Of a DNA stretch of 64,000 nucleotides, positions 32,701-64,000 are shown piece by piece. Position numbers and translations under genes: made by a program. The notes under the pieces were generated by a model, which was given only the letters and a program-made list of their open reading frames with translations, was not told where the DNA came from and ran no database searches. The first letter of the stretch is position 1. Each line of letters starts with the position of its first letter. Source of the stretch: Bolinopsis microptera (lineage: Eukaryota; Ctenophora; Tentaculata; Lobata; Bolinopsidae); the NCBI RefSeq assembly GCF_026151205.1, contig NC_087080.1:10959837-11023836 (forward strand), in the 5' to 3' direction.

Positions 32701-35700
32701 TGTCTGTTCTTTCTTCTGTGATGTGAAGCAGGCATGTGATGTACCCAAACCTTGGAGCACAACTGCTGTGTCTCTTGCAAGTTGCATATCGTTTCTGTTA
32801 CTTTTGACTCAGGCGTGTACATGTTTTGTTGGATTCTACTAACATCTTATCAGATCACATCAAGTCTATGGATCAGGATCTCAGTACCTCAATTTGCATA
32901 GATGATGTCATTACCGAGCTTGACAACATTCACCACATTTTGAGTGAAACTGGTACTCTTCAATCAGTAGAACTAGAAAACTGCATGTTTTCTCATGAAA
33001 AAGAGTAATTTTGAGTTCGAAAAAATGAATTCTACTTTGCAGTTTTGCACGTTCGGCTTCTCAGCAGCTACAAGCTGGAGATGGCTAAATCACTTCATTT
33101 TCTTTCTCATAAACTTCTTCTGCCATTAGAAGCATGTAAATCTTCTCTGGATAATTCACTATTCGACTATATCACTAATCATTTATATCTTTACAATGAG
33201 TCTTTTTCCATACCTTACAAATCACTTGTATTGGTTGATAGCTAACTCTTCATTGTTCCAAATAAAACTTGACTCTTATTACAATTACAAGTTAACTTTT
33301 AAGTTTAATTTTAAGCGTATGTGTATATAATCACTTGTATATAAATACTTACTTTGTGGACAAATGCAGCCGAAGGATATGATATCGTCAAAACTAGCAG
33401 CAAAGTAAACCATTCAATTATAGCTCGGTCGCGAAAAGATAGTCGCTAAAACTGAGAGGCCAGCTTTTCGCGGCTGTGGTATAGACTTTAAGATCGAACA
33501 ATTGCATTCAAGATATAGCACACTTTGGAAAGCTCCCATCAGTCCTACATCCACATTATTTAACATGGCGCACTGATAACACACCCATTTGTGGGGATGG
33601 TCCCTGTTGAATCGCCTCTGTGCTACAAATTTGTCTTGACACGTGACAGCGGTGTGAACAAATCATTGGTTAAGTCATGTCGTGTATCCTGACAAACTTG
33701 TCTCACTTTACCGCCTATTTTCCAGTCTTACAGTTACAGCCCCTAATTAAAAACCCAATTAACCACTCAACTAATGACCTAATCCCCCTGTAGAGGTAGC
33801 TCGACCTGGTCTGCGTGAGGGACATCTCTACTTCTCTCCGGCCCCCTCGGAGACACCCAGCCACCTCACAACGCCTCCCCCCACTCAGAACACTCACATC
33901 GCTTCTACTGACGAGTTTAACAGAGAACTTTCCAGACTTGATCTTTCAAACTTGCACGGGAAGATTCTCAACGAGTAAGTTATCAAAAATTTACTATTTT
34001 TCGTGAGATATTAAATTATTTTTTCTAATTTTTATCCAGGTATAGACTATAATAGAAAGTACTACAATGGGGGGGGGGGGTGTCACGTCCGTCTATGTCC
34101 GCTTGTCTCATAGAATCCAAAAAGGACAGGACATAGGCGGACATAGGCGGACATAGACGGACATAGGCGGACATAGGCGGACATAGACGGACAAAGGCGG
34201 ACATAGGCGGACATAGGCGGACATTAATGGACACCTAAATTGCTAAATAAAATGTTCAATTTTTGCTGTTATAGGGGGATCATGTTTTTGTCCGTTCCTC
34301 CTCCTCCCCCTGGGTCTTCCTGATCTTCCTCAGTCCTCTTCCTCCTCCCCTCCTCAGTCCTCCTCCTACTCCTCCTCCTCGTCCTCAGTCCTCCTCATCA
34401 GTCCTCAACAGTCCTCCTCCTCCCCAGTCCTCCTCCTCCTCCTGAGTCCTCCTCCTGGGTCCTCCTCCTGGGTCCTCCTCCTCCTCTTCATCCTCCTCCT
34501 CTTCCTCCTCAGTCCTCAGTCCTCCTCAGTCCTCCTCCTCATCCTTCTCCTCAGTCCTCCATCCTCCTCCTCAGTCCTCCCCCAGTCCCCCTCCTCCTCC
34601 TCCTATTTAGTCCTCCTCCTCCTCCTCCTTCTCAGTCCTCCTCAGTCCTCCTCCTCTTCCCTCTCAGTCATCCTCCTCAGCCATCCTCCTCAGTCCTCCT
34701 CAGTCCTCCTCCTCAGTCCTCCTCCTCCTGGTCCTCCTCCTCCTCTTCATCCTCCTCCTCTTCCTCCTCGGTCCTCAGTCCTCCTCCTCCTGGGTCCTCC
34801 TCCTCATCCTTCTCATCAGTCCTCCTCCTCCCCAGTCCTCTCCCAGTCCCCCTCCTTCTCCTCCTCCTATTCAGTCCTCCTCCTCCTCCTCCTCCTCCTC
34901 AGTTCTCCTCAGTCCTCCTTCTCATTTCTCCTAAGTCCTCCTCCTGAGTCCTCCTCCTCTTCCTTTAGAGTCCTCCTCCTGAGTCCTCCTCCTCCTCCCT
35001 CTCAGTCATCCTCCTCAGTCATCCTCCTCAGCCATCCTCCCCAGCCATCCTCCTCAGCCATCCTCCTCAGTACTCCTCAGTCCTCCTCCTTCTCAGTCAT
35101 CGTCAGTCCTCCTCCTCAGTCCTCCTCCTCCTCCTCCTCCTCCTCCTGGATCCTCCTGGGTCTTCCTGATCCTCCCCAGTCCTCTTCCTCCTCCCCTCCT
35201 CAGTCTTCCTCCTACTCTTCCTCCTCGTCCTCAGTCCTCCTCATCAGTCCTCAACAGTTCTCCTCCTCCCCAGTCCTCCTCCTCTTCCTGGGGCCTTTTC
35301 CTGGGTCCTCCTCCTGGGTCCTCCTCCTCCTGGGTCCTCCTCCTCCTGGGTCCTCCTTCTCCTCCTCAGTCCTTCTCCTCCTCCTCCTCAGTCCTCTTCC
35401 TCCTCTTCCTCCTCCTCCTCCCTCTCAGTCATCCTCCTCAGCCATCCTCCTCAGCCATCCTCCTCAGTCCTCCTCCTTCTCAGTCCTCCTCAGTCCTCCT
35501 CCTGAGTCCTCTTCCTCCTCAGTCATCCTCCTCAGTTCTCCTCCTCCTCCTCCTAGGTCCTCCTTCTGGGTCCTCCTCCTCCTCCTTCTGAGTCCTCCTC
35601 CTGAGTCCTCCTCCTCCTCCCTCTCAGTCATCCTCCTCAGTCATCCTCCTCAGCCATCCTCCTCAGCCATCCTCCTCAGCCATCCTCCTCAGCCATCCTT

Positions 35701-38700
35701 CTCAGCCATCCTCTTCAGTACTCTTCAGTCCTCAAAATGTTTGTCCGCTAATGTCCACCAATGTCCGCTAATGTCCACCAATGTCCATCCAAGTCCGCCA
35801 ATGTCCGTCCGGGTCCGCCAATGTCCGTCCGAGTCCGCCAATGTCCGTCCGAGTCCGCCAATGTCCGTCCGAGTCCGCCAATGTCCGTCCGTGTCCGCCA
35901 ATGTCCCAAAAAACACGTCCGTTGTCTCATAGAATCCAAAAAGGACAGGACATAGGCGGACATAGACGGACATGACACCCCCCCCCCCCCTACAATGTTG
36001 GATTTCTCGTTCGATTTTTTCGAAAAAATGTAGCGTCATCATCGACAGTAAAAGGTTTTGTTCGTCAAAAATGGTGTGGGATTTGAAACTCTTAAAGTCA
36101 AAAACATCTTTAGTAAAAACGTCCATTTTCCCAAAACGTGTGATTTCTCGCTCTTGTTGTAAAAAGATGTATATAAGAAGAATAAGAGAAATGATCGCAG
36201 GTTCAACTACTATTTCGGTCGAATGCGAAATCTCTTCTCCAAATCAGACAGTCCATCAAACTCGCTCACTTCCACACCTAAAAAACTCCGTAAATCGGAC
36301 AAAACAAGACTTTCAAAGAGTGACGATCATTTGTTCAGCTGTCTCTCATCTCAGACCTTCATACCAGAAATGCCTCGCTCAAAATCACTAAGCAATGTAG
36401 GAACACTGTCCGATATTGATACAACTCTGCGTTCTGACTCATTGCTAAAATTCACAACGGCCTCTGAGAGTATCGGCGTGATTCGTCACGCGACGTATGA
36501 TAATGACGTGATGTCACGATCCACTCACGTGACGTCATCAGAAGACGTGTCGCGCGAGAGTCTGAGCGAGCTCACGCTGTCTGAATATCTAACACCTGTC
36601 TCTAAAAGTCGGTCTAGTGTGCCGTGAGGGGGCGACCTGTGAGTGCGTGTGTTAGATTGCATGTTGGGTTCCACTCTCCTTCTCTATTCCCGTTTACTTG
36701 AAAGATTGTGCATGCTGATTTACATGAACCAATTCAACAATCAAAATCGCGGGAAACCTGATTTAGGTCTTTAGGTATATTGCACTGGGAAAGTGTGTGT
36801 TAGTGTTTTGTAGAAGTGAGAAAAGTGAGCCTAATCATGAGCGCGACAGTTTATCCCGGAAATAAATCCACCTTTTTTCTAACATTATTATACCAGCACT
36901 AGTTTTTAATTTTCATCCACAAAATAAAACACGTTCGTAATTAGATAAATACTTTACTTTAACAAAGTACAGAAATTTTAAGAAGAAACTTTTGTCACTA
37001 CATTTCCATATAAGTAGGTGACCGTATCATGACTCATAATGTATTTTGTATGGCTACATTTCCACAAATTTCATTATGCAACACCAAAATCCGTACGTCA
37101 TAAAGTGAATGTTGTTGCCTCCTTTAATGGCAACAAAATCAAAATTAAAAGCAGACGATTCCAAACATGCTGTCTCTTTAAAAACTGCCATCAGTGACAC
37201 CACGTCGTATTGCCTTCTTTGACGACTACTCTCACACAGATAGGGATGTACTACTTCTCGTATCACATCCATTTTCTCCAGTATTAATCTTCCCATTTTG
37301 CATCCGATCCAGTTCCACGAACCTCTGAATTGGCCGCTGCAGAGGAAATCATTGACGAGATCATTGACAGATCTGTCGTAATTTTGCATAAACTTCTCTG
37401 ACGATAAAGGACAAAAGAAAGGGACAAAATGCCACTTCTTTATTCCATTCCAGAGGCAATCAGAAACCTCCGTTCTTTTCTTCAGTGATTTCAGCTTAAC
37501 TGCTTTCTCTGCTTCTTTGAGTAGGACAGGTAGGTTGCTCAAGACATTTGTATATGTAATGTTACCATTACATGCCATAATAACCGATACATGCATCATG
37601 TATCTAAGCATATCATCTGGAATATTCTTCCACCATTCTCTGTTTCCAGTACACAGATATGAACGTACTATTTTCTCCGCAAAATCTACGTCCATCTTCT
37701 TGCCTTTGATTACGCGATTCCGACATAGAAAAGTCGACAGTAACAGGATAAGAAAGAGGACACGCATAATAAAATGAAAACGGTCCCTGGAAAAGTTATT
37801 CTTAATAACGTGGGGTTGGGGATTGAAATTCGTGGGTAATCTTTTCGGTGCTGCAAGTGGTATACAATTATATCTTGTTGTCCAGGTGGCTGTTAAAGCT
37901 GAAATTACTAATGAGATTTTGCACCTGTACTTTACTCATTTGATTGGACTGTACGTTCCGAAATTCTGAAACATTTGTATAGTCTTAGCTATGGCACCTG
38001 TTTTTGATCAAGCTGTAATCACCGATATGTTTTCCGATTAAAATTTGGTCCATATTCTGTTAAATCTCACATTCTTCAGGACAACACTACACTCCATAGC
38101 ACTATGAGAGGTTCAAACAAATCTATCACGTGACACGTAGGTTACTGCTGTCAGCTCAAACCTTTTATCTACACAATGCTAAGAAAGATCAGAATATGCT
38201 TCAGAATATGAAAGTTCAGAATCGTTTTTTGGAAAAACCCTTGCTACATGTTCGCTAATTCGCTATATGTTGCCATTCTGGTGTCGGTGATCATTAACTA
38301 GAAAATGCCAAATCTGCTGTATTCCGCAACAAATATAACTTTTAGAATTTAGATGGCTGCTAACTTTTAGATTTGGCCACATTCATTTAGATCACTTATT
38401 ATGTTACCTATGTAACATTTTGCCGACTGTTCGTAAAACTGGCACGTGTAACGTGTATGCAACTATTCTGAGTTTTCGTTGAACAAGCCTTGCCGAAAAC
38501 GGTGCTGTGGAATGGCGCTCATTGATAGTCACAATGTCTCTGTATATCGATAATATGCAGATGCTTGATTTGAACTTGTCGAACGTTGTAATAACTTCAA
38601 TGAAGGTGCATCAAGTTTCAAAGATTCGAGATGCTGTCAAGAAATGAAAGTTTGGTATGTTTGTATGGGGAATGACAAGCAGCTTAGTCCCATGAAGCAG

Positions 38701-48590: not shown

Positions 48591-48688
48591 CTAGTCGTTG
48601 GAGTGGCCTGCATCACACACATCTCTTCTACGGCGTAACATGTTCCTCCATTCCACTCGCTTTAGAGCCAACTGTTTTACTGCATCTC
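48591..48688 (-). pseudogene. Detached C-terminal end of the RTE-like reverse transcriptase ORF
   Basis: On the minus strand, the bases just outside the palindromic element continue the frame of the RT ORF at 57760-59308 for 30 codons (ending 'VCDAGHSND') to TAG at 48591-48593, once a single CATCTC copy is counted. This proves that the 9-kb element split one gene. Confidence 0.85.
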
Positions 48689-48721
48689 AGTAGTATATAT
48701 ACATACACCTGGCCCCCAATC

Positions 48722-49003
48722 ACCTAGGTGTGAACTGCCCCCGGGGCCTCCCCGGGCCGAGCTGCCCCCGGGGAGCTGAGGGACTGCCCCGGGGAGCTGG
48801 GGAACTGCTCCGGGAACACCCTCCGTGAACCAGGGGCAATCGCAGCAACAATCACCACAGCCCGGGAACTCACCCGGAACGGGCTCTCTGTGAGCCAGGT
48901 GTGAAATATCCTCGTAACGGGCTCCGGGGACCCTCGAGAGATCGTTCATTTGTTGTTGAGTTCGATTGTTTAGTTTCACACCTCTCGGACTGGAACAAGA
49001 CAT
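48722..49003 (-). CDS. Short GC-rich arm ORF, left copy (provisional)
   Basis: Minus strand, starting 'MSCSSPRGVKLNNRTQQQMN' and followed by 'CGDCCCDCPW' and Pro/Gly repeats ('GAVPQLPGAVPQLPGG') made by the subterminal repeats. The frame runs through the element end, so it has no natural stop inside; doubtful as a gene. The same ORF is at the other end. Confidence 0.3.
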
Positions 49004-49299
49004 CTCAGATGTAAGTATATTTTTATTTTGTAGCGAATATTCTGTTCACGGGGCACACAAAACTGTCCCGGGCCCTTGTTCCTAAGATCCGCAAGTCCGG
49101 TGTGATCTTTCTTAGAGCACGAGGACTTTTATTGCAATAAATCCCTCGGTGTGAACCCGACCCTCCCAGAGCAATAGGTCCCACAATTTGCAGCAAGTAC
49201 TTGCTATATCAAAATCTACACAATCATATTTCAACTTACCCTCCCGATCTCCGCGTGACCACTCCCGGAATTATTATGTTTATCATCATTTCATATGTG

Positions 49300-49653
49300 T
49301 TATCTTTGAAACAGCAATCTACGACACGGCGAGATCTTGACCAATTTTTGTTTACACTTGATGTCTAGTAATGCTACATAGTATTTCACAAGTCCGTTTT
49401 TTATTTCCAACTTGAACTCAAGCTCCGGACACACAGAACTAGTAGCAACAATTGACGCTGCATTATTATATTTTTGAGGTGTGACAATTGTTTGAAGAGA
49501 GCTTTTCATAAATGTATCACAAGACCATGATATGTTGAATATTGTCAAACCTGCCCCCCGTATTACGCCTGATTTACTTGAAATTCGTTTACCAATTTTG
49601 TAAATATGATTATTTGTTGTTATTTCGAAGAGAAGTGACTGAAAAGGTGCCAA
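49300..49653 (-). CDS. 117-residue arm ORF, left copy, unknown
   Basis: Starts 'MAPFQSLLFEITTNNHIYKI' and contains 'SSVCPELEFKLEIKNGLVKY'. Alternating hydrophobic residues suggest a beta-rich fold. Exactly mirrored at 56795-57148. Family unknown. The start may lie elsewhere, as splicing cannot be excluded. Confidence 0.45.
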   Translation of the reverse strand: MAPFQSLLFEITTNNHIYKIGKRISSKSGVIRGAGLTIFNISWSCDTFMKSSLQTIVTPQKYNNAASIVATSSVCPELEFKLEIKNGLVKYYVALLDIKCKQKLVKISPCRRLLFQR

Positions 49654-50276
49654 TTTTTAATTCTGGGACTTGCAACAAAACGTTAGTTTGTCAGGTGAGT
49701 CAGTCATAATGTTAAACTTGAAGAGTAGCGCGGTTGAAACATGTATATAAAATTTTCAATTGTTGAGTATTCTACGTATTCCAACAACATCTTGTTTTTG
49801 TTCATTTTGCTAAGCATTAATTTTACGCTTCCATCATATTGTAAGATTTAAAATTGAGTAATTATAGGACTGTCAAATATTGCAACTAAATTTACAGGGG
49901 TCAATAACAGATAGTGATCCAATCACGTGACCGTTAATCCTTTCACGATACAGTATTACTCCTTACGGACATAAACCATGTAGTGGAACTCACAGCTAGG
50001 AGCTCTACGTTTGAGACTCTGGCTAGGGAGAACTATGATATCCACCTTCACGAGATGCATGCCACACCAGGTAATTACAGATTGAAGCAAATCCCAGTTA
50101 CAGTTTTCAGTTCATTCAACCGAATCCGTTTTCCCTTTTGAATTATATGATGATCATTTTGTAACAGTGCTGATTTTCATAAAACATCACGCAAAACATT
50201 CCAGGGTCTAGAACTGGTGACGATGCAACAAGACTGAACAATATCAAAACAACATTCAAGCAAAATTGAGCGATGT

Positions 50277-50987
50277 TTGAGTAAATTGCTGAGCAGTCCC
50301 CAAGTATATAAAGAGAACAAGGTTGGAAATTCATTTCAATCAGAGATGTCGGTGTTTTGTCCTCTCTGCGATAAACAATTCGCAAACAAGCAAAGTCTGT
50401 CCTCACACAAAAGTCGGTATCATCGGAAGAAGGGAGAATCACACACAAGTTCTATCAACCACCCACCGTCAAAAGCTTATGTGACTGATGAAAAAAGGGA
50501 TAATCCTAAATATTCAGACGCTGATACAACAATATCTGAAGAAGATTATCAAGACAGTTCTAACTCTGAAGTAGCAAGTGTTGATGATGAGTCAAAAACA
50601 GAATCTGATCATATGACAAGTAGAGATAAGCTAGACTCTGACTCCCTGTGGCAACAAAAATGTAAGCGGAAAGAAGTACCAATCAAACAAATAAACAAAA
50701 AGGTGAAGATGTCGAAATTTATCAAAACTTTAGACGTTCTGTCACAAAGAAAGTTATGTAAGGAGGAAGACAAACGTTTTGACTTTTTATCCTCTTACAT
50801 AATGAAAAATGAAGTGTTTGAGACATTGAAGCAGCGACTCAATAACTCTAGGCAAGACATCGCCACCGTTTTAAGTTTGGAAGAACGAGCTCTATTGGAT
50901 GCAGTAATTACAACTACAAGTCTATCTGATGTCAACAAGCTAATGAACGAGAATAAAACAATCGTCAGTAAGATTCTTGAACTTTAA
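50277..50987 (+). CDS. C2H2 zinc-finger protein of the palindromic element, left copy
   Basis: 236 residues from the first in-frame codon; the first Met in good context is at 50346 ('MSVFCPLCDKQF'). One classic C2H2 finger, C-x2-C-x12-H-x5-H ('CPLCDKQFANKQSLSSHKSR' + YH), is followed by an acidic Ser-rich linker ('SEEDYQDSSNSEVASVDDES') and a helical C-terminal domain ('MSKFIKTLDVLSQRKL', 'SLEERALLDAVITTTSL'). The stop is at 50985-50987. The second copy, 55452-56162 on the minus strand, is the same in sequence. One finger plus a helical domain suggests a DNA-binding or transcription factor of the element. Family not recognised. Confidence 0.75.
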   Translation: MSKLLSSPQVYKENKVGNSFQSEMSVFCPLCDKQFANKQSLSSHKSRYHRKKGESHTSSINHPPSKAYVTDEKRDNPKYSDADTTISEEDYQDSSNSEVASVDDESKTESDHMTSRDKLDSDSLWQQKCKRKEVPIKQINKKVKMSKFIKTLDVLSQRKLCKEEDKRFDFLSSYIMKNEVFETLKQRLNNSRQDIATVLSLEERALLDAVITTTSLSDVNKLMNENKTIVSKILEL

Positions 50988-51044
50988 CCGTTGTTAACTA
51001 TTGTTAAGTTTAATAACGAACATATAGTTGTTGAATATTTTGGA

Positions 51045-51640
51045 TCAAATTGACACTGTGTTGAATATTACAGTACACCTGTTACTGCTTGTTGTTGAAA
51101 TTATAATTATATTTCTGGATTTAAAAGTATGATTGATATTGTACACAAGGTTGTACACAATTTTAAATAAACTGGTGGTGTTTTTGCGTTGATCTTTAAT
51201 CCAGCACAAGAGCTGTAGTACCATCCGCAGGCCATCCACCTCTTTTGGGGTCAATCTCTTTTCATAGTTAGGTTTCGACTCTAGTAAACAAACCTATCCA
51301 CTAATGATGATACAGATAAAATTACTAACCTGTTTAACAGCCCTAGGCCTACCCTACTGCCAGCTCAATACTGTATCTTTTTGGTGTAGGGTAATTGTAT
51401 AGAACCATAGACAGTAACTTTTTGGTGTTGATCCAGCATGAGAGCTTAAGTGAACAACGAGGAGGTTCATGTAACCCTCTTCTTGTGATGACCACCGATG
51501 TAGTGTTGATGATCTCCTTTGTATGGTGATGATTCAAGAGGATCAGGTGTTCAATGTAATGAAATCTCTGTATACTACCCAGTACCCAACTGTTGGCGAT
51601 CACTGCTTCTTGTGTGATCCTCATTCACACGACTGTTACA
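51045..51640 (-). pseudogene. RTE-like reverse transcriptase relics inside the left arm
   Basis: Two overlapping fragments on the minus strand resemble the RT ORF that flanks the element. 'CWINTKKLLSMVLYNYPTPK' and 'RYSIELAVG' (51349-51440) parallel 'LKINAKKTQCM...PYTERDSIKLTVEG'; at 51170-51240 'CAGLKINAK' appears in a shifted frame. Mirrored at 54815-55394. Confidence 0.6.
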
Positions 51641-52434
51641 ACTCCAAGTGACATGCAACAACACATTTGTAGGATGCTCTCAAGACACATGCTACTGCAC
51701 TATTAAATTGCTGATAGGCGATTGTAAGGACGATTGTTCACGTAAATACGACGTCTGGGATGACAGAAGAAGAGTGGACCCCTGTAGATCCATCTGGGGA
51801 CCGTCATTGCTGTGGTGATTGTTGTTGTGATTATTTGTGAAGATGTGATCCTCCGATATGTAGTCCCTGCTCGCTCCTGCCTCTTGATACTGACTGTGAT
51901 ACCCCCCTGATCAGATTGGCAAGCTTTTTATTCCTTTGGTATCATTAATTGCACGGTTTTTCATTGCTACCTTTGGAAATGCTTATGGCCTCCAGAAATG
52001 TAAACATACTCATGATTTTTATACAACAGTGGAATCATGAGTTTGGGTATTTTACTCCAAAAGGATAGATTATCAAGGATTTTCATAGATTTTCAGGATT
52101 ATCAAGGATATCAAGATTATCAAGGATTTTCATAGATTTTATAGATATATCACAATCGAAAGAGTCATCAGAGATGACAGACTTTTCTGAGAAAGCAGTG
52201 TTTTGAAAATTTAGTTCGGACTTCCCTGACTTCCCAGGCTTCCACTGGCGGGCCCTGCGCGGAGAATGAGGGGGCGCAGAGGGGAAATCACGGGATGTCT
52301 GGGAAGTCTACTGTCATGCCTATCATTATTATCATTTGTCTATCATTATTATCATTCACCTATAATTATTATCATTTGTCTATCATTATTTGAAATTTTC
52401 AACCCATTTACAATAACCAGGGATTCAATTAAAC
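51641..52434. other. Inner part of the left arm, no gene
   Basis: Contains tandem ATTATCAAGGAT-like units (52060-52150) and a TATCATTATTATCATTTGTC tandem repeat (52318-52390) at the arm/core boundary. The same region is mirrored on the right arm. Confidence 0.5.
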
Positions 52435-53076
52435 TTGCTCGGGATATGTTTACTTAATATGACATCGTTCCATAAGGGTATAAAAGCAATGAAGTCTTAC
52501 CCCCTCCCCCATTCAAACATGAACTTTAATTTTTTATTTAGCGTAGTTTCTACACTGGCCTTCGTCATTGAATTTCCAGTTAATTCAAACAAAACACAAG
52601 ACTACTTCTTTTTTGAGGGGGTCAACAAAACAGCACACCTGTACCGTGAAGACAAAACATTGTTTTTACATTTGAATCGCGATCATGGGAAGATGTTTTC
52701 ACTCTTTAACGCGACTATAGAGAGGGATAGCTTTCTATTCTCCTGGAAAGGATTCAAAATTGATGAAGTTGATATGTTGTTACAGAGATATAATGGAGAA
52801 ATTCAACAAACTGAATTTGAACACTTCACATTTATTTCTCCAATAATCACTGCTATAGACATTGAACCTCCTGCCACTCCTGTTTACAATTTGGAGTCAG
52901 ATGTAAATTATTTCTATTTTTTTATTTTAACGTTTACAGCAGGAGTATTGCTTGAATCTAAAACTAAGGGATTTAGCATATTTAAACAGCTTATTCAGTC
53001 ATCCAATAATAATGTGTATGTTAGTACAGAACTTAATTGTAAGCAGGTTCTCGAGATAAAAGAGGATAATCCTTAA
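52435..53076 (+). CDS. Core gene 1: ~190-residue protein with leader or membrane segments, unknown
   Basis: The likely start is the Met at 52519 ('MNFNFLFSVVSTLAFVIEFP'), which gives a hydrophobic leader; upstream Mets at 52435 and 52459 are less likely. The chain continues 'FFEGVNKTAHLYREDKTLFL' and 'FNATIERDSFLFSWKGFKID', contains potential N-glycosylation sites (N-K-T, N-A-T), and has a second hydrophobic segment 'FYFFILTFTAGVLL' near residue 165. The stop is at 53074-53076. It could be a type I membrane or secreted protein. It is single copy, in the core between the arms, 270 bp upstream of core gene 2 on the same strand. Family unknown; no resemblance to Polinton capsid, protease or ATPase motifs. 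Confidence 0.6.
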   Translation: MLGICLLNMTSFHKGIKAMKSYPLPHSNMNFNFLFSVVSTLAFVIEFPVNSNKTQDYFFFEGVNKTAHLYREDKTLFLHLNRDHGKMFSLFNATIERDSFLFSWKGFKIDEVDMLLQRYNGEIQQTEFEHFTFISPIITAIDIEPPATPVYNLESDVNYFYFFILTFTAGVLLESKTKGFSIFKQLIQSSNNNVYVSTELNCKQVLEIKEDNP

Positions 53077-53346
53077 ACTGAAATATTAACATTTTTCATG
53101 CGATCACCTAATTTTAAATAATTTTATTGATTTGAAAATTTAGTTTTGGATACACTACATCATGAAAAGTATTTGTCGGATATCACAACCATAATTAACG
53201 ACAACAAATATATGCGGACACTGGACAGGGTCTTAAAGTGTTAACCAGTAACTTACCTAAAGAATAAGTATAACTCTATAACTATAAGCTCGATACAACA
53301 ATGTTGGAACTCATTTCTTGTTTTACATCGGCAACTACGTTTCAAA

Positions 53347-53922
53347 ATGGCTTTCTTCAACTGTTACGGGTTTATATCAGAAGTTCGACCAGTAGAAAGA
53401 GGGTATACGAGGTTAACAGTTACTACAAATATACCGTTTAAAACAAAACATTTAAAGTTCAACGTTTGGGATTCATTACTTCTAAAGAAAACAACGATGG
53501 AACCTTTCAAGATAGGCGAGGAGGTTGAAGTACAGTATTCCTTCAAGAATAACTTCCCTCAACTCATCAACATGATACCTGCTGAAATAGACAATTGTCC
53601 AGTGTGCTACTCTTCATTGGAAGCTATGAATGCACAGAGAATTGAGTGTTTGGGGTGTAGTGCTATATCAGAAGCTGAACATTCGAAGAGAGTTAATGCA
53701 CAAATGAAACTTGTATCGTATACTTTAAAGAAGTACGAGAGCTCAAGGGGTTATAGACTTGAATTATATTTTGCTGATGGACATAAAACTTTTACACCAG
53801 TTATTTTTGAAAGCAACTTAGTGTTCAAAATCATCCCTGAATTAAAAGTTGGTGATAGTTACTTTGTTATTGGTTGGATAGCCAGTAATGGTCGTTTTCT
53901 AAATGTAGTTGATATTTATTAG
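53347..53922 (+). CDS. Core gene 2: 191-residue OB-fold-like protein with a zinc ribbon (candidate ssDNA-binding protein)
   Basis: ATG at 53347 ('MAFFNCYGFISEVRPVERGY'). The N-half alternates strands and turns as an OB fold would ('RLTVTTNIPFKTKHLKFNVW', 'KIGEEVEVQYSF'). The middle holds a four-Cys zinc ribbon (C-P-V-C ... C-L-G-C, 'NCPVCYSSLEA', 'IECLGCSA'). The C-half resembles a second OB-like barrel ('RLELYFADGHKTFTP', 'KVGDSYFVIGWIASNGRFLN'). This layout recalls the zinc-ribbon OB domains of RPA-like ssDNA-binding proteins, which would suit an element that replicates through single strands. The fold assignment is an inference from pattern; no homologue is known to me. Stop at 53920-53922. 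Confidence 0.65.
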   Translation: MAFFNCYGFISEVRPVERGYTRLTVTTNIPFKTKHLKFNVWDSLLLKKTTMEPFKIGEEVEVQYSFKNNFPQLINMIPAEIDNCPVCYSSLEAMNAQRIECLGCSAISEAEHSKRVNAQMKLVSYTLKKYESSRGYRLELYFADGHKTFTPVIFESNLVFKIIPELKVGDSYFVIGWIASNGRFLNVVDIY

Positions 53923-54814
53923 TTTCCTTCCCTAGAGGGATAACAGAGTTTAAAGTAATTTTCACATATTACAATTTATAGTAACAGTTCGTTTTAATTG
54001 TTTATTCACTAAATATTAAATAAGTGGTAATAATGATAAAAAATTTCAAATAATGATAGACAAATGATAATAATTATAGGTGAATGATAATAATGATAGA
54101 CAAATGATAATAATGATAGGCATGACAGTAGACTTCCCAGACATCCCGTGATTTCCCCTCTGCGCCCCCTCATTCTCCGCGCAGGGCCCGCCAGTGGAAG
54201 CCTGGGAAGTCAGGGAAGTCCGAACTAAATTTTCAAAACACTGCTTTCTCAGAAAAGTCTGTCATCTCTGATGACTCTTTCGATTGTGATATATCTATAA
54301 AATCTATGAAAATCCTTGATAATCTTGATATCCTTGATAATCCTGAAAATCTATGAAAATCCTTGATAATCTATCCTTTTGGAGTAAAATACCCAAACTC
54401 ATGATTCCACTGTTGTATAAAAATCATGAGTATGTTTACATTTCTGGAGGCCATAAACATTTCCAAAGGTAGCAATGAAAAACCGTGCAATTAATGATAC
54501 CAAAGGAATAAAAAGCTTGCCAATCTGATCAGGGGGGTATCACAGTCAGTATCAAGAGGCAGGAGCGAGCAGGGACTACATATCGGAGGATCACATCTTC
54601 ACAAATAATCACAACAACAATCACCACAGCAATGACGGTCCCCAGATGGATCTACAGGGGTCCACTCTTCTTCTGTCATCCCAGACGTCGTATTTACGTG
54701 AACAATCGTCCTTACAATCGCCTATCAGCAATTTAATAGTGCAGTAGCATGTGTCTTGAGAGCATCCTACAAATGTGTTGTTGCATGTCACTTGGAGTTG
54801 TAACAGTCGTGTGA

Positions 54815-55394
54815 ATGAGGATCACACAAGAAGCAGTGATCGCCAACAGTTGGGTACTGGGTAGTATACAGAGATTTCATTACATTGAACACCTGATCCT
54901 CTTGAATCATCACCATACAAAGGAGATCATCAACACTACATCGGTGGTCATCACAAGAAGAGGGTTACATGAACCTCCTCGTTGTTCACTTAAGCTCTCA
55001 TGCTGGATCAACACCAAAAAGTTACTGTCTATGGTTCTATACAATTACCCTACACCAAAAAGATACAGTATTGAGCTGGCAGTAGGGTAGGCCTAGGGCT
55101 GTTAAACAGGTTAGTAATTTTATCTGTATCATCATTAGTGGATAGGTTTGTTTACTAGAGTCGAAACCTAACTATGAAAAGAGATTGACCCCAAAAGAGG
55201 TGGATGGCCTGCGGATGGTACTACAGCTCTTGTGCTGGATTAAAGATCAACGCAAAAACACCACCAGTTTATTTAAAATTGTGTACAACCTTGTGTACAA
55301 TATCAATCATACTTTTAAATCCAGAAATATAATTATAATTTCAACAACAAGCAGTAACAGGTGTACTGTAATATTCAACACAGTGTCAATTTGA
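54815..55394 (+). pseudogene. RTE-like reverse transcriptase relics inside the right arm
   Basis: Mirror copy of the fragments at 51045-51640; the ORFs at 54815-55090 and 55185-55394 are the same in sequence as those on the left arm. Confidence 0.6.
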
Positions 55395-55451
55395 TCCAAA
55401 ATATTCAACAACTATATGTTCGTTATTAAACTTAACAATAGTTAACAACGG

Positions 55452-56162
55452 TTAAAGTTCAAGAATCTTACTGACGATTGTTTTATTCTCGTTCATTAGC
55501 TTGTTGACATCAGATAGACTTGTAGTTGTAATTACTGCATCCAATAGAGCTCGTTCTTCCAAACTTAAAACGGTGGCGATGTCTTGCCTAGAGTTATTGA
55601 GTCGCTGCTTCAATGTCTCAAACACTTCATTTTTCATTATGTAAGAGGATAAAAAGTCAAAACGTTTGTCTTCCTCCTTACATAACTTTCTTTGTGACAG
55701 AACGTCTAAAGTTTTGATAAATTTCGACATCTTCACCTTTTTGTTTATTTGTTTGATTGGTACTTCTTTCCGCTTACATTTTTGTTGCCACAGGGAGTCA
55801 GAGTCTAGCTTATCTCTACTTGTCATATGATCAGATTCTGTTTTTGACTCATCATCAACACTTGCTACTTCAGAGTTAGAACTGTCTTGATAATCTTCTT
55901 CAGATATTGTTGTATCAGCGTCTGAATATTTAGGATTATCCCTTTTTTCATCAGTCACATAAGCTTTTGACGGTGGGTGGTTGATAGAACTTGTGTGTGA
56001 TTCTCCCTTCTTCCGATGATACCGACTTTTGTGTGAGGACAGACTTTGCTTGTTTGCGAATTGTTTATCGCAGAGAGGACAAAACACCGACATCTCTGAT
56101 TGAAATGAATTTCCAACCTTGTTCTCTTTATATACTTGGGGACTGCTCAGCAATTTACTCAA
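55452..56162 (-). CDS. C2H2 zinc-finger protein of the palindromic element, right copy
   Basis: Same in sequence over its whole translation as 50277-50987: one C2H2 finger, acidic linker, helical C-terminus. The likely Met is at 56093. Both copies being intact suggests recent insertion, or gene conversion or replication that keeps the arms alike. Confidence 0.75.
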   Translation of the reverse strand: MSKLLSSPQVYKENKVGNSFQSEMSVFCPLCDKQFANKQSLSSHKSRYHRKKGESHTSSINHPPSKAYVTDEKRDNPKYSDADTTISEEDYQDSSNSEVASVDDESKTESDHMTSRDKLDSDSLWQQKCKRKEVPIKQINKKVKMSKFIKTLDVLSQRKLCKEEDKRFDFLSSYIMKNEVFETLKQRLNNSRQDIATVLSLEERALLDAVITTTSLSDVNKLMNENKTIVSKILEL

Positions 56163-56794
56163 ACATCGCTCAATTTTGCTTGAATGTTGTTTTGATATTG
56201 TTCAGTCTTGTTGCATCGTCACCAGTTCTAGACCCTGGAATGTTTTGCGTGATGTTTTATGAAAATCAGCACTGTTACAAAATGATCATCATATAATTCA
56301 AAAGGGAAAACGGATTCGGTTGAATGAACTGAAAACTGTAACTGGGATTTGCTTCAATCTGTAATTACCTGGTGTGGCATGCATCTCGTGAAGGTGGATA
56401 TCATAGTTCTCCCTAGCCAGAGTCTCAAACGTAGAGCTCCTAGCTGTGAGTTCCACTACATGGTTTATGTCCGTAAGGAGTAATACTGTATCGTGAAAGG
56501 ATTAACGGTCACGTGATTGGATCACTATCTGTTATTGACCCCTGTAAATTTAGTTGCAATATTTGACAGTCCTATAATTACTCAATTTTAAATCTTACAA
56601 TATGATGGAAGCGTAAAATTAATGCTTCCCGGAATTAGCAAAATGAACAAAAACAAGATGTTGTTGGAATACGTAGAATACTCAACAATTGAAAATTTTA
56701 TATACATGTTTCAACCGCGCTACTCTTCAAGTTTAACATTATGACTGACTCACCTGACAAACTAACGTTTTGTTGCAAGTCCCAGAATTAAAAA

Positions 56795-57148
56795 TTGGCA
56801 CCTTTTCAGTCACTTCTCTTCGAAATAACAACAAATAATCATATTTACAAAATTGGTAAACGAATTTCAAGTAAATCAGGCGTAATACGGGGGGCAGGTT
56901 TGACAATATTCAACATATCATGGTCTTGTGATACATTTATGAAAAGCTCTCTTCAAACAATTGTCACACCTCAAAAATATAATAATGCAGCGTCAATTGT
57001 TGCTACTAGTTCTGTGTGTCCGGAGCTTGAGTTCAAGTTGGAAATAAAAAACGGACTTGTGAAATACTATGTAGCATTACTAGACATCAAGTGTAAACAA
57101 AAATTGGTCAAGATCTCGCCGTGTCGTAGATTGCTGTTTCAAAGATAA
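56795..57148 (+). CDS. 117-residue arm ORF, right copy, unknown
   Basis: Same in sequence as the ORF at 49300-49653. Confidence 0.45.
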   Translation: MAPFQSLLFEITTNNHIYKIGKRISSKSGVIRGAGLTIFNISWSCDTFMKSSLQTIVTPQKYNNAASIVATSSVCPELEFKLEIKNGLVKYYVALLDIKCKQKLVKISPCRRLLFQR

Positions 57149-57444
57149 CACATATGAAATGATGATAAACATAATAATTCCGGGAGTGGTCACGCGGAGA
57201 TCGGGAGGGTAAGTTGAAATATGATTGTGTAGATTTTGATATAGCAAGTACTTGCTGCAAATTGTGGGACCTATTGCTCTGGGAGGGTCGGGTTCACACC
57301 GAGGGATTTATTGCAATAAAAGTCCTCGTGCTCTAAGAAAGATCACACCGGACTTGCGGATCTTAGGAACAAGGGCCCGGGACAGTTTTGTGTGCCCCGT
57401 GAACAGAATATTCGCTACAAAATAAAAATATACTTACATCTGAG

Positions 57445-57756
57445 ATGTCTTGTTCCAGTCCGAGAGGTGTGAAACTAAACAATCGAACTCAACAACAAAT
57501 GAACGATCTCTCGAGGGTCCCCGGAGCCCGTTACGAGGATATTTCACACCTGGCTCACAGAGAGCCCGTTCCGGGTGAGTTCCCGGGCTGTGGTGATTGT
57601 TGTTGCGATTGCCCCTGGTTCACGGAGGGTGTTCCCGGAGCAGTTCCCCAGCTCCCCGGGGCAGTCCCTCAGCTCCCCGGGGGCAGCTCGGCCCGGGGAG
57701 GCCCCGGGGGCAGTTCACACCTAGGTGATTGGGGGCCAGGTGTATGTATATATACT
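57445..57756 (+). CDS. Short GC-rich arm ORF, right copy (provisional)
   Basis: Mirror of the left-arm ORF; the last codons lie in LINE sequence beyond the element, so the stop is accidental. 'CGDCCCDCPW' followed by Pro/Gly repeats. Confidence 0.3.
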
Positions 57757-57759
57757 ACT

Positions 57760-59308
57760 CATCTCTGCTGATGTTATCGACACCTGTAAATTCAGCCGCA
57801 TCCTCGAGTACACAGGCCATCCAGCCTTTGCGGGGTCGTCCTCTCAGTCTCTTTCCATAGTTTGGTTTCCAATCCAGTAAGAAATTGGGAAACTGCGTCT
57901 CTGGCATTCTGACAACATGTCCGTACCACCTTAGTCTAGCCGCACTGATGAAAGTTTCGATAGACTTAATTCCAGCACGCCTGAGAACTTCTTCATTGGA
58001 GACATGGAAGAACCACTTTATCTTCAAGATTCTTCTCAGGGAGGTCAGATGGAAGACCTCAAACCGTTTCATCTGCTTCTTTGTTGTGTTCCACACTTCG
58101 GCTCCATATAACAGAATAGTAATAACAGCAGCCTTGTAGATACGGATCTTGGTGGGCGTTCTTATAGTTCGACTGTTCCATATCTTCCAAAGCTGATGGA
58201 ACGCACCATTAGCACGCTGGATCCTGATGTCAAGATCTCGGTCAATGGTACCATCCCCACTGATGTTGGCACCAAGATAAACAAAGTTGCTGACCTGTTC
58301 AACAGGTTCTCCCTCCACTGTTAGCTTTATACTGTCTCTTTCGGTGTAAGGTCGCTGGGACGCACACTTGCTGATCGCCATGCATTGTGTCTTTTTAGCG
58401 TTGATCTTCAACCCAGCATAAGAGGTGTAATAAGCTAGAAGATCAGTGGACTCTTGCAGCCCTTCTTCGGTATTGTCCATCACTGCCAGATCATCAGCGT
58501 AGTCACTGTCCATGATAACTTTTTCATCTGCACCCTTTAGTTCCTTTTGCAGTACAGCACCATGACTGATTGCCTTGTGAACCTCGGCCAAAAAGATTCC
58601 TAAGTTCAGACAAAAATTAAATACAGGGGGGCCCTGGATATCACCCTGTCCAGTGCCCGAATTAACAGAGAACCAATCAGACATTTCACCATTAACCCTG
58701 ACAGCACTCATGGTTCCGTTGAAGAATGCCTGAAAGATTCTAACATATTTCTCAGGAAGTCCATAGTGTCTCATGCTTGACCAAATAAACTCTCTTCTGA
58801 TGGAATCAAACGCTGCCTTAAAATCAATGAAATTAACATAAAGTGGAATGTTAAACTCAATGCAGTTGTGAATAATGGTGCGGATGGAATAAATCTGATC
58901 AATACATGAGCGGTTCCGTCTGAACCCACACTGATTTTCCCTAAGAAGACACTCCATTCCAACATCCAGCCTCTTAAGAAGAACCATTTGAAGAACCTTA
59001 GAAGACGTTGCCCTAAGAGTTATACCCCTATTATTGCAGCAGTATGAGGTGTCTCCCTTCTTTCCGATAACCACTATAACACCTTTAAGCCAATCCTCAG
59101 GGATCACCTCTTCCTCCCATACCTTTTTAAACAGTAGCTCTAGTTGGCCAACAAGAGCACTTCCACCATACTTAAGTTGTTCATTAGTTATCTCATCAAC
59201 CCCTGCACTTTTGCAGTTCTTCAGTTTCTTTAGAGCATAACTAATCTCATCTCTAGAAGGAGGTCCATCAGAACAAGAAAGGTAGTCAAAACTCGGTTGT
59301 GAGGGCAC
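57760..59308 (-). pseudogene. RTE-like LINE reverse transcriptase, interrupted by the palindromic element
   Basis: The minus-strand frame opens at a GTG (59306-59308) preceded by a stop, so the endonuclease part is missing: a 5'-truncated copy. RT blocks in order: 'KLKNCKSAGVDEITNEQLKY', 'NNRGITLRATSSKVLQMV', 'ENQCGFRRNRSCIDQI', 'NFIDFKAAFDSIRREFI' (first catalytic Asp), 'SGTGQGDIQGP', 'DSDYADDLAVMDNT' (catalytic Y-A-D-D), 'YAGLKINAKKTQCM', then the C-terminal 'RLRWYGHVVRMPE' and 'KRLRGRPRKGW' typical of RTE-type elements. The frame stops at 57755-57757 only because the inserted element begins there; the true end is at 48591. Otherwise no lesions over 515 codons, so the LINE was young when hit. 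Confidence 0.85.
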
Positions 59309-59397
59309 ACCATCGATAAGCTACTTATATTAGTATTACAGCACCATTCATCAATCAGTATATCAAAATATGTCATTTCAATTTTGCATGGCTGAAA
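59309..59397. other. Junction between the truncated LINE and the gypsy LTR
   Basis: The exact boundary is not resolved. One candidate LTR edge is TGTAACG at about 59398. Confidence 0.3.
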
Positions 59398-60459: not shown

Positions 60460-63400
60460 TTATGCTGTTTTCTTGAAACCAGCAAGTAACTTATAATCAA
60501 CTTTCGGCTTAGATCGAAGACTAACACGTAACGGTATAATATCATCTGTCACATTACGATTATCAACATTAACTGGTGTACTGTTTACATTCTCTCTATT
60601 CGAAATATCAGAACTTCTACTAGGTAAACTATCGGTTAAAATATCAGGTTCTCTAAAAACTGGTTCAGCTGTAATCACAGATTCAGGTGTACTCACAACC
60701 AATGGACTTACTACTGGTCCAGCAATCTCAGATAACACAGGTTCCACAACAGGTACAAACGGCACAACTCTAACCTGGTGATCATTGTCCGGTACAGTTG
60801 TAGATCTTCTTAACACATCTTTTACTCTCTCTTTTATCGAATCAGCGTGTTTCTGGATCACTCGGTTTCTGTATACCACATCGTATACATTCGACGTACC
60901 AACTCTCTGTAATATCTTAGCTTTTTCCCAAGTCTTATCGTTAGTAGCTTGAATCCAGACGTCTTGATTATCCACAAACTCTCTCCTCTTTTCATTTAGA
61001 AGTTTCTGTTCCTTGTCGGGGTGTAAAGATTTCAATTTCTGTTGATCCGATGGCTTTAATGCGTGCAGGTTAGAACGTAATGTTCTACCGTACATTAGAA
61101 CTGCGGGTGGGGTATTTGTCACCGTATGAGGGCAGTTCCTGTAGGAGATCAGAAACTCTGCTAAACATTCGTCCAAATCCCTATTAGTTTCCCGCATCTT
61201 TTTCAGCGCTTTCTTGAATGTTCCGTTAAATCTTTCAACAATCCCGTTTGTCTTAGGGCTGTAGATTGGAATAAACAGATGTTTGATCCTGTGTTTCTCG
61301 GTAAACTCGCTCATTTCCTGGTTCTTGAAATGTGTTCCATTGTCAGAAACCAGTACACAAGGATATCCTGTTCTAGAAAATATCGTATGTAACGCTTTCC
61401 CGGTAGCATGAGCTGTTGAACTGTTCATCCTGATAACTTCCGGCCATTTGCTGTAAGCATCTTGCAATACTAACCACATGCTGTTCATGAACGGTCCTGC
61501 ATAATCCACATGAACCCGCTGCCATGGTCCGGTTGGTTGATTCCAGGGATGATCAGCGACTCTAGGTTTTGAGTTACCATACTTTCCACAACTATCACAT
61601 GTTTTACATGTGTTTTCAATATCCGCGTCTATTCTCGGCCAATACACATAGCTTCTAGCTATCGATTTCATACCACACATTCCAATGTGCGTGCTGTGTA
61701 AGATCTTCATGACATGACCTCTTAACTGTGCAGGTATCACCACTCTCGTTCCCCAGGTAATACAGTTAAGTTCCAATGCTAACTCATCTCTTCTGTTCCA
61801 GAATGCTTGCATATCCCCCTCTGCTTTCAAGTTACTTGGCCATCCCTCATGAATGTAACCAAATACCTTACTCAAAACAAGGTCTTTTCTAGTTTCCCTC
61901 GCAATCAGCTCTGCGTCAATGTAAGCATCCTCCAGAGTAACAGCAAATATCTCAGCTAGATCATCTTGAACTTCTGAAGTTTTCACAGATTTACTACACG
62001 GTAATCTGGATAAGAAATCACAGTTTGCATGTTGCTTTGTTGACCGGTACTCGATTGTATAATCATATTCTGATAGGAATAATGACCATCGGTTTACTCT
62101 ACTTGAAGCCATCTGTGGAAGTCTGTTCTTTCCAAAGATATAAGTGAGCGGTCTGTGGTCGGTGATCAGCTTAAACTTCCGTCCATACAAGTATATGTTG
62201 AACTTCTTGATCCCCCATACAATCGCTAACGCTTCTCTATCAATTTGAGCATAATTTCGCTCTGCTGACGATAAAGTCCTAGAAGCATACTCTATTGGAC
62301 GTTCCTCCCCTGAAGGTAGTACATGGCTCAGCACTGCGCCCAATCCAACACTAGATGCGTCTGTGTCGAGTTTTAGCTCCAACTCCGGCTGATAATAAGT
62401 CAAAACTCGATCTGATCCTAGCATCTCAATCAACTTGTCAAAAGACTTCTGTTCCGTCTTTGTCCACTTCCAAGACACATCTTTGCTCCTCAATCTATCT
62501 AGTGGTGCAACTACTGTTGATAGATCTGGTAGAAATCGTCGATAATAGTTAACTGCTCCAAGAAAACTGACTAGCTCCTCCGTGTTCGTTGGAACTTTAG
62601 ATGCTTGTAAGTCTTTCACCTTACTCTGCACAGTTCTAATACCGTCCTTCGATATAACGTGACCCAAGTAAACAACTTGTTCTTTCTCGAACTGGCTCTT
62701 CTCACGGTTGCATTTAAACCCTTTCTTCTCCAAGATTTGTATCACACGGTTCAAGTTTTCCAGGTGTTCCTGCTTTGTTCTCCCAGACACGATGATGTCA
62801 TCAATCCGACATGCAGTCATCGGTATTCCCTTGAGAGCTTCATCCACTACTTCCTGAAAAATAGCACCCGAGCTTGATACGCCATAAGGTAAACGATTCC
62901 ACCGGTAGAGTCCAAAAGGTGTGTTTAACGTCGTCAATGTCTTATCTGCTTCCCTCAGCTCGAGATTGTTGTACGCTTTGGCTATATCCACCACGGTAAA
63001 CACAACACCTCCTCTGACTGCATGAAGACATTCCTCTAACGAAGGAATAGGATACTGCTTCACTGCGAGACACTTGTTAACTGTTGACTTGTAATCACCA
63101 CAGATCCTTATCTTTTGCTTTGTGGTAACCACAACAATGGGCGTTGCCCATTCAGAACTTTCCACACTCTTTAAGATTCCGTCTTCTACCATTCTTTGGA
63201 GTTCTTCTTTCACCTTGTCTTTTATAGCAAACGGTAACATCCGAGCTTTCAACGATATAGGTGTAGCGTCGTCTTTGATCCTCAGTTGAGCTTTGAATCC
63301 TTCTACAAGTCCCAGACCACTAGTGAACACTTCACTCTGTTTCAACTGGTCCAGAGTTCTGAATAGAACTGTAGCTGCAGGTTGATTCTTTGTCTTTGTT

Positions 63401-64000
63401 CTTCTTTCTTTATCCTCGATGAGTCTTACATCGAGTCTCTGATCTCCCTTGGTATTCCTACCAAAGTCTTTGACTCCCTTAGCATCCTCGCTAGGGTCTT
63501 TAACACGAACAACAGACTTCTCGCTCACACTGCACAACACATCAGGCTGCTTAGTCTCACCATGCGACAAAACACTGTCACACTTTACGGACACACGCTC
63601 CTGCGACATCAACACAGACTTACGGTCCAAACTGACTGACTCGTCCATGGTCTCACCATGCGACACCTCACTGCCACACTCAACAGACACACGATCCTGC
63701 AACACGGACTCACGGTCTAGACCAACTGACTCAACCTCTCGCACAACATACTGACACAAACTACTCTTACCCTCAGCGTTGAATCTTTCCAGTATCTCTT
63801 TCAACCAACTCTTACCCAGGAATGCTGTTATCCAGTTCCATCCAAACAAAGCCGGAAAGTTCCCTTTGACAATCACTAAGTCTAAACCAGGGATTCTCTT
63901 TCCTTTGAATGTCACATTAACAGTAGCCTTTCCCTTAGCTTCCTCGGACTGACCGTTAGCTACTTTAAGAAGCTGATGATGCGGAGACAACACACAAGAC
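60460..64000 (-). CDS. pol: Ty3/gypsy pol polyprotein: protease end, RT, RNase H, integrase (open at the window edge)
   Basis: 1177 codons without a stop, continuing beyond 64000. The N-part shows the end of the aspartic-protease region ('VIVKGNFPALFGWNWI'). RT: 'ICGDYKSTVNKCL', 'VFTVVDIAKAYNNLEL' (catalytic Asp), 'LPYGVSSSGAIFQ', 'CRIDDIIVSG' (I-D-D where Y-x-D-D is usual). RNase H: 'LKLDTDASSVGLGAVLSH', ending 'ANCDFLSRLP'. Integrase: zinc-binding H-x-G-M...C-x-x-C ('HIGMCGMKS', 'CKTCDSC'), then D-D-E core 'HVDYAGPF', 'VLVSDNGTHF', 'SPKTNGIVERFNG'. A basic C-tail ends at 60460. Such elements copy their RNA and integrate in host DNA. The intact frame suggests a recent copy; the Ile in the RT motif is unusual but the two Asp are present. 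Confidence 0.9.
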   Translation of the reverse strand, partial: SCVLSPHHQLLKVANGQSEEAKGKATVNVTFKGKRIPGLDLVIVKGNFPALFGWNWITAFLGKSWLKEILERFNAEGKSSLCQYVVREVESVGLDRESVLQDRVSVECGSEVSHGETMDESVSLDRKSVLMSQERVSVKCDSVLSHGETKQPDVLCSVSEKSVVRVKDPSEDAKGVKDFGRNTKGDQRLDVRLIEDKERRTKTKNQPAATVLFRTLDQLKQSEVFTSGLGLVEGFKAQLRIKDDATPISLKARMLPFAIKDKVKEELQRMVEDGILKSVESSEWATPIVVVTTKQKIRICGDYKSTVNKCLAVKQYPIPSLEECLHAVRGGVVFTVVDIAKAYNNLELREADKTLTTLNTPFGLYRWNRLPYGVSSSGAIFQEVVDEALKGIPMTACRIDDIIVSGRTKQEHLENLNRVIQILEKKGFKCNREKSQFEKEQVVYLGHVISKDGIRTVQSKVKDLQASKVPTNTEELVSFLGAVNYYRRFLPDLSTVVAPLDRLRSKDVSWKWTKTEQKSFDKLIEMLGSDRVLTYYQPELELKLDTDASSVGLGAVLSHVLPSGEERPIEYASRTLSSAERNYAQIDREALAIVWGIKKFNIYLYGRKFKLITDHRPLTYIFGKNRLPQMASSRVNRWSLFLSEYDYTIEYRSTKQHANCDFLSRLPCSKSVKTSEVQDDLAEIFAVTLEDAYIDAELIARETRKDLVLSKVFGYIHEGWPSNLKAEGDMQAFWNRRDELALELNCITWGTRVVIPAQLRGHVMKILHSTHIGMCGMKSIARSYVYWPRIDADIENTCKTCDSCGKYGNSKPRVADHPWNQPTGPWQRVHVDYAGPFMNSMWLVLQDAYSKWPEVIRMNSSTAHATGKALHTIFSRTGYPCVLVSDNGTHFKNQEMSEFTEKHRIKHLFIPIYSPKTNGIVERFNGTFKKALKKMRETNRDLDECLAEFLISYRNCPHTVTNTPPAVLMYGRTLRSNLHALKPSDQQKLKSLHPDKEQKLLNEKRREFVDNQDVWIQATNDKTWEKAKILQRVGTSNVYDVVYRNRVIQKHADSIKERVKDVLRRSTTVPDNDHQVRVVPFVPVVEPVLSEIAGPVVSPLVVSTPESVITAEPVFREPDILTDSLPSRSSDISNRENVNSTPVNVDNRNVTDDIIPLRVSLRSKPKVDYKLLAGFKKTA

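Follow-up and report, generated by a model that had tools for sequence, protein, structure and literature searches.

A palindromic Polinton-type mobile element with 3.7-kb arms, probably a non-autonomous satellite, in the ctenophore Bolinopsis microptera

In the parts of the vertebrate survey considered here, intact Polintons (Mavericks) are 12.7–24.6 kb long, most commonly end in the motif (AGT)2//(ACT)2, are bounded by 6-bp target-site duplications (TSDs) and carry inverted repeats of 46–1,447 bp, with a mean of 402 (PMC8097293). The element described here lies at positions 48689–57759 of a 64,000-nucleotide stretch of Bolinopsis microptera DNA (the window; C9:10959837-11023836, contig NC_087080.1). 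It resembles these Polintons in its ends and its 6-bp TSDs, and has its end sequence and genes in common with Polinton-type elements of the same genome. It differs in being about half the usual length and 82% palindromic, and in that PolB, integrase, ATPase and capsid were not recognised in it; its terminal inverted repeats, at 3.7 kb, exceed the published vertebrate range, in agreement with a preliminary description of the window, which had called the arms unusually long for a Polinton. Endogenous mavirus-like elements (EMALEs) of Cafeteria are likewise integrated linear genomes, with inverted ends of 0.2–2.3 kb and truncated members that must have regrown their repeats; most EMALE types, however, keep capsid genes, their TSDs are mostly 3–5 bp, and no near-complete palindrome is described in the portion of that work considered here (PMC8547959). 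No Pfam match to a virophage capsid was found among the open reading frames (ORFs) of the B. microptera element, and scans of viral contigs yielded no relatives.

Snap-back sub-genomes accompany the parent virus in adeno-associated virus (AAV), where they form a major class of defective particles, but AAV is a parvovirus whose sub-genomes are packaged in particles instead of forming chromosomal families with TSDs (PMC8235507). Galileo/Foldback transposons have non-autonomous copies whose inverted repeats grew by inversion of inner sequence and are longest in transposase-free copies; unlike the present element, Galileo belongs to the P-element superfamily and, according to the parts of the account used, has 7-bp boundaries and repeats of up to ~1.26 kb, those of the longest-armed copy being 95.2% identical (PMC3573991). 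Listings and abstracts of the open-access literature, with Repbase, Dfam and closed journals outside the scope, contained no palindromic or non-autonomous Polinton, and the phrase "non-autonomous Polinton/Maverick" had 0 occurrences. Work on cryptophyte Polinton-like viruses (PLV) accepted repeats of up to 8 kb in the part considered, so its tables may hold long arms (PMC12220804).

The palindrome in the window is a real, multi-copy mobile element. Probably it is a non-autonomous palindromic Polinton satellite that is mobilised in trans, with copying from one arm to the other keeping the two identical. The element is an inverted duplication of 9,071 bp, with the 5' end AGTAGTATATATAC, a 3' end that is its complement, and termini AGTAGT//ACTACT. 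The near-perfect palindrome reported in the preliminary description, with ~3.7-kb arms making up 82% of 9,071 bp, was recovered: the arms total 7,431 of 9,071 bp (81.9%), and the arms are mismatched at 2 of their 3,711 aligned sites and differ in length by 9 bases at one place. The flanking CATCTC copies that it named were read at both junctions, and its gene content, a doubled C2H2 gene and two single-copy core genes, matches the one C2H2 gene per arm and two core ORFs found here. Positions in the window are as follows.

48683..48688, no strand: left copy of the target-site duplication CATCTC (flank reading and empty sites)
48689..52399, + strand: left palindrome arm, 3,711 bp, starting AGTAGTATATATACATACACCTGGC (arm alignment)
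48689..49213, + strand: left terminal ~525 bp, common to P0 (C11, 92%) and the C5 relative (85%) (sequence comparison)
50346..50987, + strand: left copy of the C2H2 gene, 213 aa from MSVFCPLC, pointing inward (ORF and Pfam)
52320..52390, + strand: (CTATCATTATTATCATTTGT)n, a short tandem repeat, inner end of the left arm
52400..54039, + strand: unique core, 1,640 bp
52489..53076, + strand: core gene 1, 195 aa (ORF)
53347..53922, + strand: core gene 2, 191 aa, predicted two-OB-fold product (ORF and structure model)
54040..57759, - strand: right arm, 3,720 bp, mirroring the left arm and ending ...ACTACT (arm alignment)
54049..54119, - strand: the (CTATCATTATTATCATTTGT)n tandem repeat again, at the inner end of the right arm
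55452..56093, - strand: right (mirror) copy of the C2H2 gene
57235..57759, - strand: right terminal ~525 bp, common to P0 (sequence comparison)
57760..57765, no strand: right copy of the target-site duplication CATCTC (flank reading and empty sites)

Searches of the whole assembly (264.65 Mb, 232 contigs) revealed four further copies of the same layout, on contigs C3 (9,081 bp), C8 (9,007 bp), C2 (9,460 bp) and C1 (enlarged to 17,719 bp), which together with the window copy are referred to as family A. The preliminary description had proposed looking for copies with different 6-bp duplications, and such copies exist: all four copies in which both flanks were read (C1 being left out) carry perfect 6-bp TSDs, namely CATCTC in the window, CATACC on C3, AACGAC on C8 and CTCAAT on C2. 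Duplications of another length, named there as evidence that would speak against the proposal, were not seen among these four. When families A, B and C and a related element on C5 are pooled, the TSD is 6 bp long in 8/8 insertions with two intact ends; a ninth element (L017), with a decayed right end, stands outside this count. Allowing up to three mismatches, the terminus pattern has 17 genome matches (0 in a reversed control), among them six facing pairs, which are the five family A palindromes and the C5 element. The window copy is inserted in an abundant reverse-transcriptase element (RVT_1 in 57758–59320), and a 245-base query made of the joined flanks with one CATCTC runs through the junction in 40/40 scored matches at 99–100% (621 candidates, of which 40 were scored). 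The 6-bp duplication is thus demonstrated directly, since these empty sites hold a single CATCTC.

The preliminary assignment to the Polinton class, made from the 6-bp duplications and AG termini, agrees with the published Maverick motif and TSD length, and elements with matching end sequence occur in the same genome. The terminal ~520 bp of the element is 92% identical to the right end of P0, an element on C11 (L015+L016) that holds a piece of rve integrase (E 8.6e-6, below the Pfam cut-off) and an ATPase-like ORF with sub-threshold Pfam matches. The PolB pieces of P0 were named from 30–32% identity to the PolB frame of family C, in which Pfam recognises PF03175; when scanned themselves they gave no Pfam match. 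A second such element, on C5 (L018), is 7,111 bp long with the TSD CTCCCC, and its ends are 85% identical to those of family A over ~525 bp. Its PolB pieces are 95–97% identical to those of P0, which it largely matches minus ~9.9 kb of the P0 middle. The terminal ~525 bp, which on the left side includes a short GC-rich tandem repeat (48689..49213), is presumed to comprise the replication origin and the end used by the integrase. Another related element, L017, lies 79 kb from L018 (C5:19509505 and 19430338); its right terminus is decayed and the two have an identical 20-base left flank, so this insertion was probably copied by segmental duplication.

The statement that the element has no Polinton core genes is supported for PolB and integrase and needs one refinement. 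Six distinct ORFs of at least 100 aa, compared with Pfam at E<=1, gave no match to any family of polymerases, integrases, ATPases, proteases or capsids. Of the 20 PF03175 (protein-primed PolB) matches in the genome, none lies inside the element, and none of the 32 integrase matches, obtained with one query integrase, lies inside the 19 family A, B and C elements checked. For capsid, ATPase and protease the result consists of these six ORFs without a Pfam match, and Pfam likewise missed the large ORF before the P0 integrase. The refinement concerns the two core genes, each of which has homologues in the B. microptera genome close to integrases of Polinton type, that of core gene 1 lying ~2 kb from an integrase in another Polinton-type family (73–77% amino acid and ~81% DNA identity). 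A capsid identity for the 381-aa ORF before the P0 integrase was considered and set aside as a guess, since it has no Pfam, PDB or NCBIfam match. Also rejected was an origin of family A by plain deletion of P0: the arm resembles P0 or the C5 element mainly in its final ~525 bp, and it is the C5 element, unlike family A, that is largely a deletion of P0. No single element emerges as the direct parent: the end resembles P0, core gene 1 another family and core gene 2 yet others.

The arms are identical, or nearly so, within each copy while the copies diverge. Among gap-free columns of the four full-arm copies (window, C3, C8 and C2; C1 left out), 121 are variable, and both arms of every copy agree in 106 of them; in the other 15 the arms differ in one copy (C8 7, C3 5, window 2, C2 1). 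Divergence between the arms of a copy is 0.05–0.25%, and between copies it reaches 3.06%. In the C1 copy both arms contain a ~2.15-kb insert, identically placed and with the same 9-bp flank (L012:2009-4161, L013:664-2805). Aligned over 2,163 columns, the two inserts (2,153 and 2,142 bp) show 4 mismatches and 3 gap openings; the simplest explanation is one insertion that was copied across, or re-formation of the palindrome afterwards. The insert, which we take to resemble a retroelement, gave no significant Pfam match. A further ~4.2 kb, deduced from the end coordinates, is present in the left arm of C1 only and was therefore probably gained after arrival; this favours copying in the mobile phase over constant in-place conversion.

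The window element is one of several palindromic families rather than an isolated oddity, which suggests that palindromy is a recurrent lifestyle and did not come about by chance. Two copies of family B (L020, L021) have the ends AGTAGTGTAAG, the TSDs CGTAGG and GTTGCA, and a doubled C2H2 gene whose frame is broken in L021; their arms differ at 0/2,546 and 19/2,699 sites, and the two copies are 93.6% alike. The family B terminus has 28 genome matches forming 12 facing pairs, comprising seven with C2H2 on both strands, four (13.8–21.2 kb) with one C2H2 gene and one of 3.2 kb with a partial C2H2. In two of these four larger elements, on C13 and C7, the end that holds C2H2 is collinear with the B arm (80–93%, apart from ~1 kb that is missing). 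Further in, the C13 element has an ORF of which ~68 residues resemble the C-terminal part of PolB (small pairwise search, E 1e-4 to 1e-6). Because its arm matches one end of larger elements, family B provides our best evidence for, and suggests, the duplication of one end of a larger element.

Family C was read in sequence in one of seven pairs (L041/L042), which has the TSD GACGTC, arms of 5.75 kb with 4 mismatches in 5,747 sites, and a 1,261-aa PolB frame in each arm. PF03175 was recognised in a 461-aa piece of this PolB (E 5.8e-12, above the cut-off), and hmmscan did not list it for the whole 1,261-aa frame or a 684-aa piece. The family C terminus has 14 matches with 0–1 mismatch, all in facing pairs (7/7, 7.7–15.3 kb), and four unpaired matches with two mismatches. 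Four of the seven pairs contain PolB matches (two each in three, one in the fourth) and three contain none. Family C accounts for seven of the 20 PF03175 matches in the genome, most of the rest being solitary; palindromy is therefore not general among PolB elements.

Across the genome the C2H2 protein has 127 matches at 68 loci (matches joined within 12 kb), and both strands are represented at 38 loci. Among the 45 loci with a match of at least 180 aa, 35 are inverted pairs, some with partial partners: four convergent, which are family A, and 31 divergent. The paired C2H2 genes thus face each other in family A and face apart in the remaining pairs, which argues for at least two origins of palindromy. 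About 19 divergent pairs at ~63% identity span ~4–10 kb (for example C3:5322836/5327513 and C13:15281124/15285195).

The C2H2 protein has one N-terminal C2H2 finger, with weak Pfam matches, and a conserved C-terminal region with no convincing family match. By eye, the product of core gene 1 has hydrophobic stretches near both ends; it matched no Pfam or NCBIfam family and one PHROG at chance level (E 0.066), and its structure model is unusable, with a predicted local distance difference test score (pLDDT) of 31.6. The model of core gene 2 contains two OB folds and a CxxC...CxxC loop, and its product is probably a two-OB-fold protein that binds single-stranded DNA (ssDNA). Scans of viral contigs with core gene 2, C2H2, the family C PolB and core gene 1 returned no relatives. 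Ratios of nonsynonymous to synonymous substitution rates (dN/dS) point to constraint on C2H2 and core gene 1 between families: window C2H2 gave 0.34–0.40 in eight comparisons with L020–L024, and core gene 1 gave 0.19–0.24 against L030–L032. Against L014, a degraded relative on C7, two pieces of C2H2 gave 0.79 and 0.53. Within family A, C2H2 gave 1.15 and 0.89 against C2, and 0.50 for one arm of C1, the other being undefined; core gene 1 gave 0.29–0.71, and core gene 2 gave 0.19 (C2) and 0.86 (C1). Frames are intact in four of the five family A copies, except that one of the two C2H2 genes on C2 is out of frame for its final ~9 codons; the C1 copy is damaged, its insert splitting C2H2 and a stop codon interrupting core gene 1. 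Oppositely directed homologues of core gene 1 (30–47% identity) also occur ~10 kb apart at C1:17404107-17414883, C8:2881314-2891805 and C15:39107-49669, each locus having one integrase match near one of the homologues; these are possibly long-armed Polintons with an integrase.

Protein-primed linear genomes, such as those of adenoviruses with their panhandles, provide the model for a replication scheme. From the Polinton-type ends, the 6-bp TSDs, the end in common with P0 and the homogenised arms, all read directly, we infer mobilisation in trans by a Polinton integrase together with snap-back copying. Polinton PolB and its terminal protein, acting in trans at the common ends, would replicate the satellite in linear form through protein-primed strand displacement. 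Once displaced, a strand would fold so that its arms pair into a stem of 3.7 kb around a loop of 1.6 kb; any arm carrying damage or a variant would be re-copied from its partner, and the Polinton integrase would insert the replicated product. Since the proposed life cycle passes through long single strands, the element may bring its own ssDNA-binding protein, encoded by core gene 2; the C2H2 protein, kept in several palindromic lineages, is perhaps an end- or promoter-binding factor. The palindromes themselves may have arisen by snap-back, one Polinton end being copied onto the other.

Several observations weigh against the satellite interpretation. P0 is itself broken: its PolB is spread over several frames, and it has a 3.4-kb insert that the C5 element lacks. 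Among the elements read, no working or intact helper was found, nor was a larger element with the whole A arm. Mobilisation in trans and protein priming are deductions from sequence. The OB model of core gene 2 has a predicted template-modelling score (pTM) of 0.46, and its five models span pLDDT 36 to 78.7; known ssDNA-binding proteins (SSBs) score no better against it than do other proteins with OB folds (CusF/SilF, RecO), its sequence matches no known SSB, and PDB sequence searches gave only chance-level matches. Changes within family A are too few for a selection test, and C2H2 frames are broken in the B copy L021, in the C1 copy and in the last ~9 codons of one C2 copy. In-place gene conversion could likewise keep the arms alike.

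This last process, by which the arms of sex-chromosome palindromes are kept alike, is the most serious competitor: a Polinton satellite whose arms are equalised after insertion, in the chromosome and not as a free molecule, would equally predict concerted arms and the C1 insert in both of them, and the arms lie only 1.6 kb apart. We nevertheless consider it rather unlikely, since equalisation would be incomplete, with the ~4.2-kb C1 extra in one arm only and 2–9 differences left in each of the four A copies; in the degraded C7 relative (L014) only one arm is recognised; and the palindromic layout predates insertion, because the TSDs sit at the outer ends of each copy read at both ends. Still less probable is that the palindromes are terminal relics, by-products of Polinton replication comparable to defective-interfering genomes, which were inserted by chance and lack a life cycle of their own. 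The AAV snap-back genomes, the truncated virophage elements with regrown repeats, the internally deleted P0 relative on C5 and the broken frames in some palindromes fit such an origin. By-products are not expected to form lineages, however, and family A comprises five palindromic copies up to 3% apart in their arms with mostly intact frames, inverted pairs occur at most loci with a long C2H2 match, and the genes are constrained between families.

A fold-back cut-and-paste transposon (Galileo/Foldback, or Ginger/TDD-like), unrelated to Polinton replication, could enlarge its repeats by inversion as Galileo does, but we regard this as very improbable: the uniform 6-bp TSDs differ from the 7 bp bounding Galileo, the ~520-bp end is common to an element with PolB and integrase, and the core genes have homologues near integrases. 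No transposase family was matched in the element ORFs with Pfam, and no Ginger search of the genome was made. Although long inverted repeats are notorious for causing misassembly, an assembly artefact is hardly credible here: the palindrome occurs at five loci, each on a contig of its own; each of the four copies read at both ends has a different perfect TSD; and paralogous empty sites and arm-specific differences within copies likewise argue strongly against it.

Extending the satellite interpretation, we tentatively propose, as a possibility that we would not yet call probable, that the genome hosts a multipartite Polinton community. Normal integrase elements, palindromes with doubled PolB, and palindromes with doubled C2H2, with or without the ssDNA-binding protein, would each be mobilised by the parts of others. 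Palindromy would then be a selected heritable form, combining self-templated end repair with gene doubling, that arose at least twice.

The window contains other features. A second inverted-repeat unit, 12.4 kb end to end (19674–32044), has 527-bp repeats that are 99% complementary and encloses long ORFs on the minus strand, one of which, of 1,219 aa, contains a reverse transcriptase (RVT_1 E 5.5e-28). A pol frame of Gypsy type (RVT_1, RNase H, integrase core) is open over 60463–63999, up to the window end, and a low-complexity stretch open in more than one frame (34247–35929) lies within a GC-rich part (56.6% in 34001–36000).

That virus-like transposons may themselves host satellites is seldom discussed. 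The palindromic families with common ends, several of them in one genome, form a natural record of linear protein-primed genomes possibly doubling one end, and the same record bears on how the halves stay identical and how such elements live off helpers. Two questions become testable: does Polinton DNA go through long single-stranded forms, and can "defective" palindromes turn into stable lineages? Repeat annotation and assembly can hide or collapse palindromic elements of this kind.

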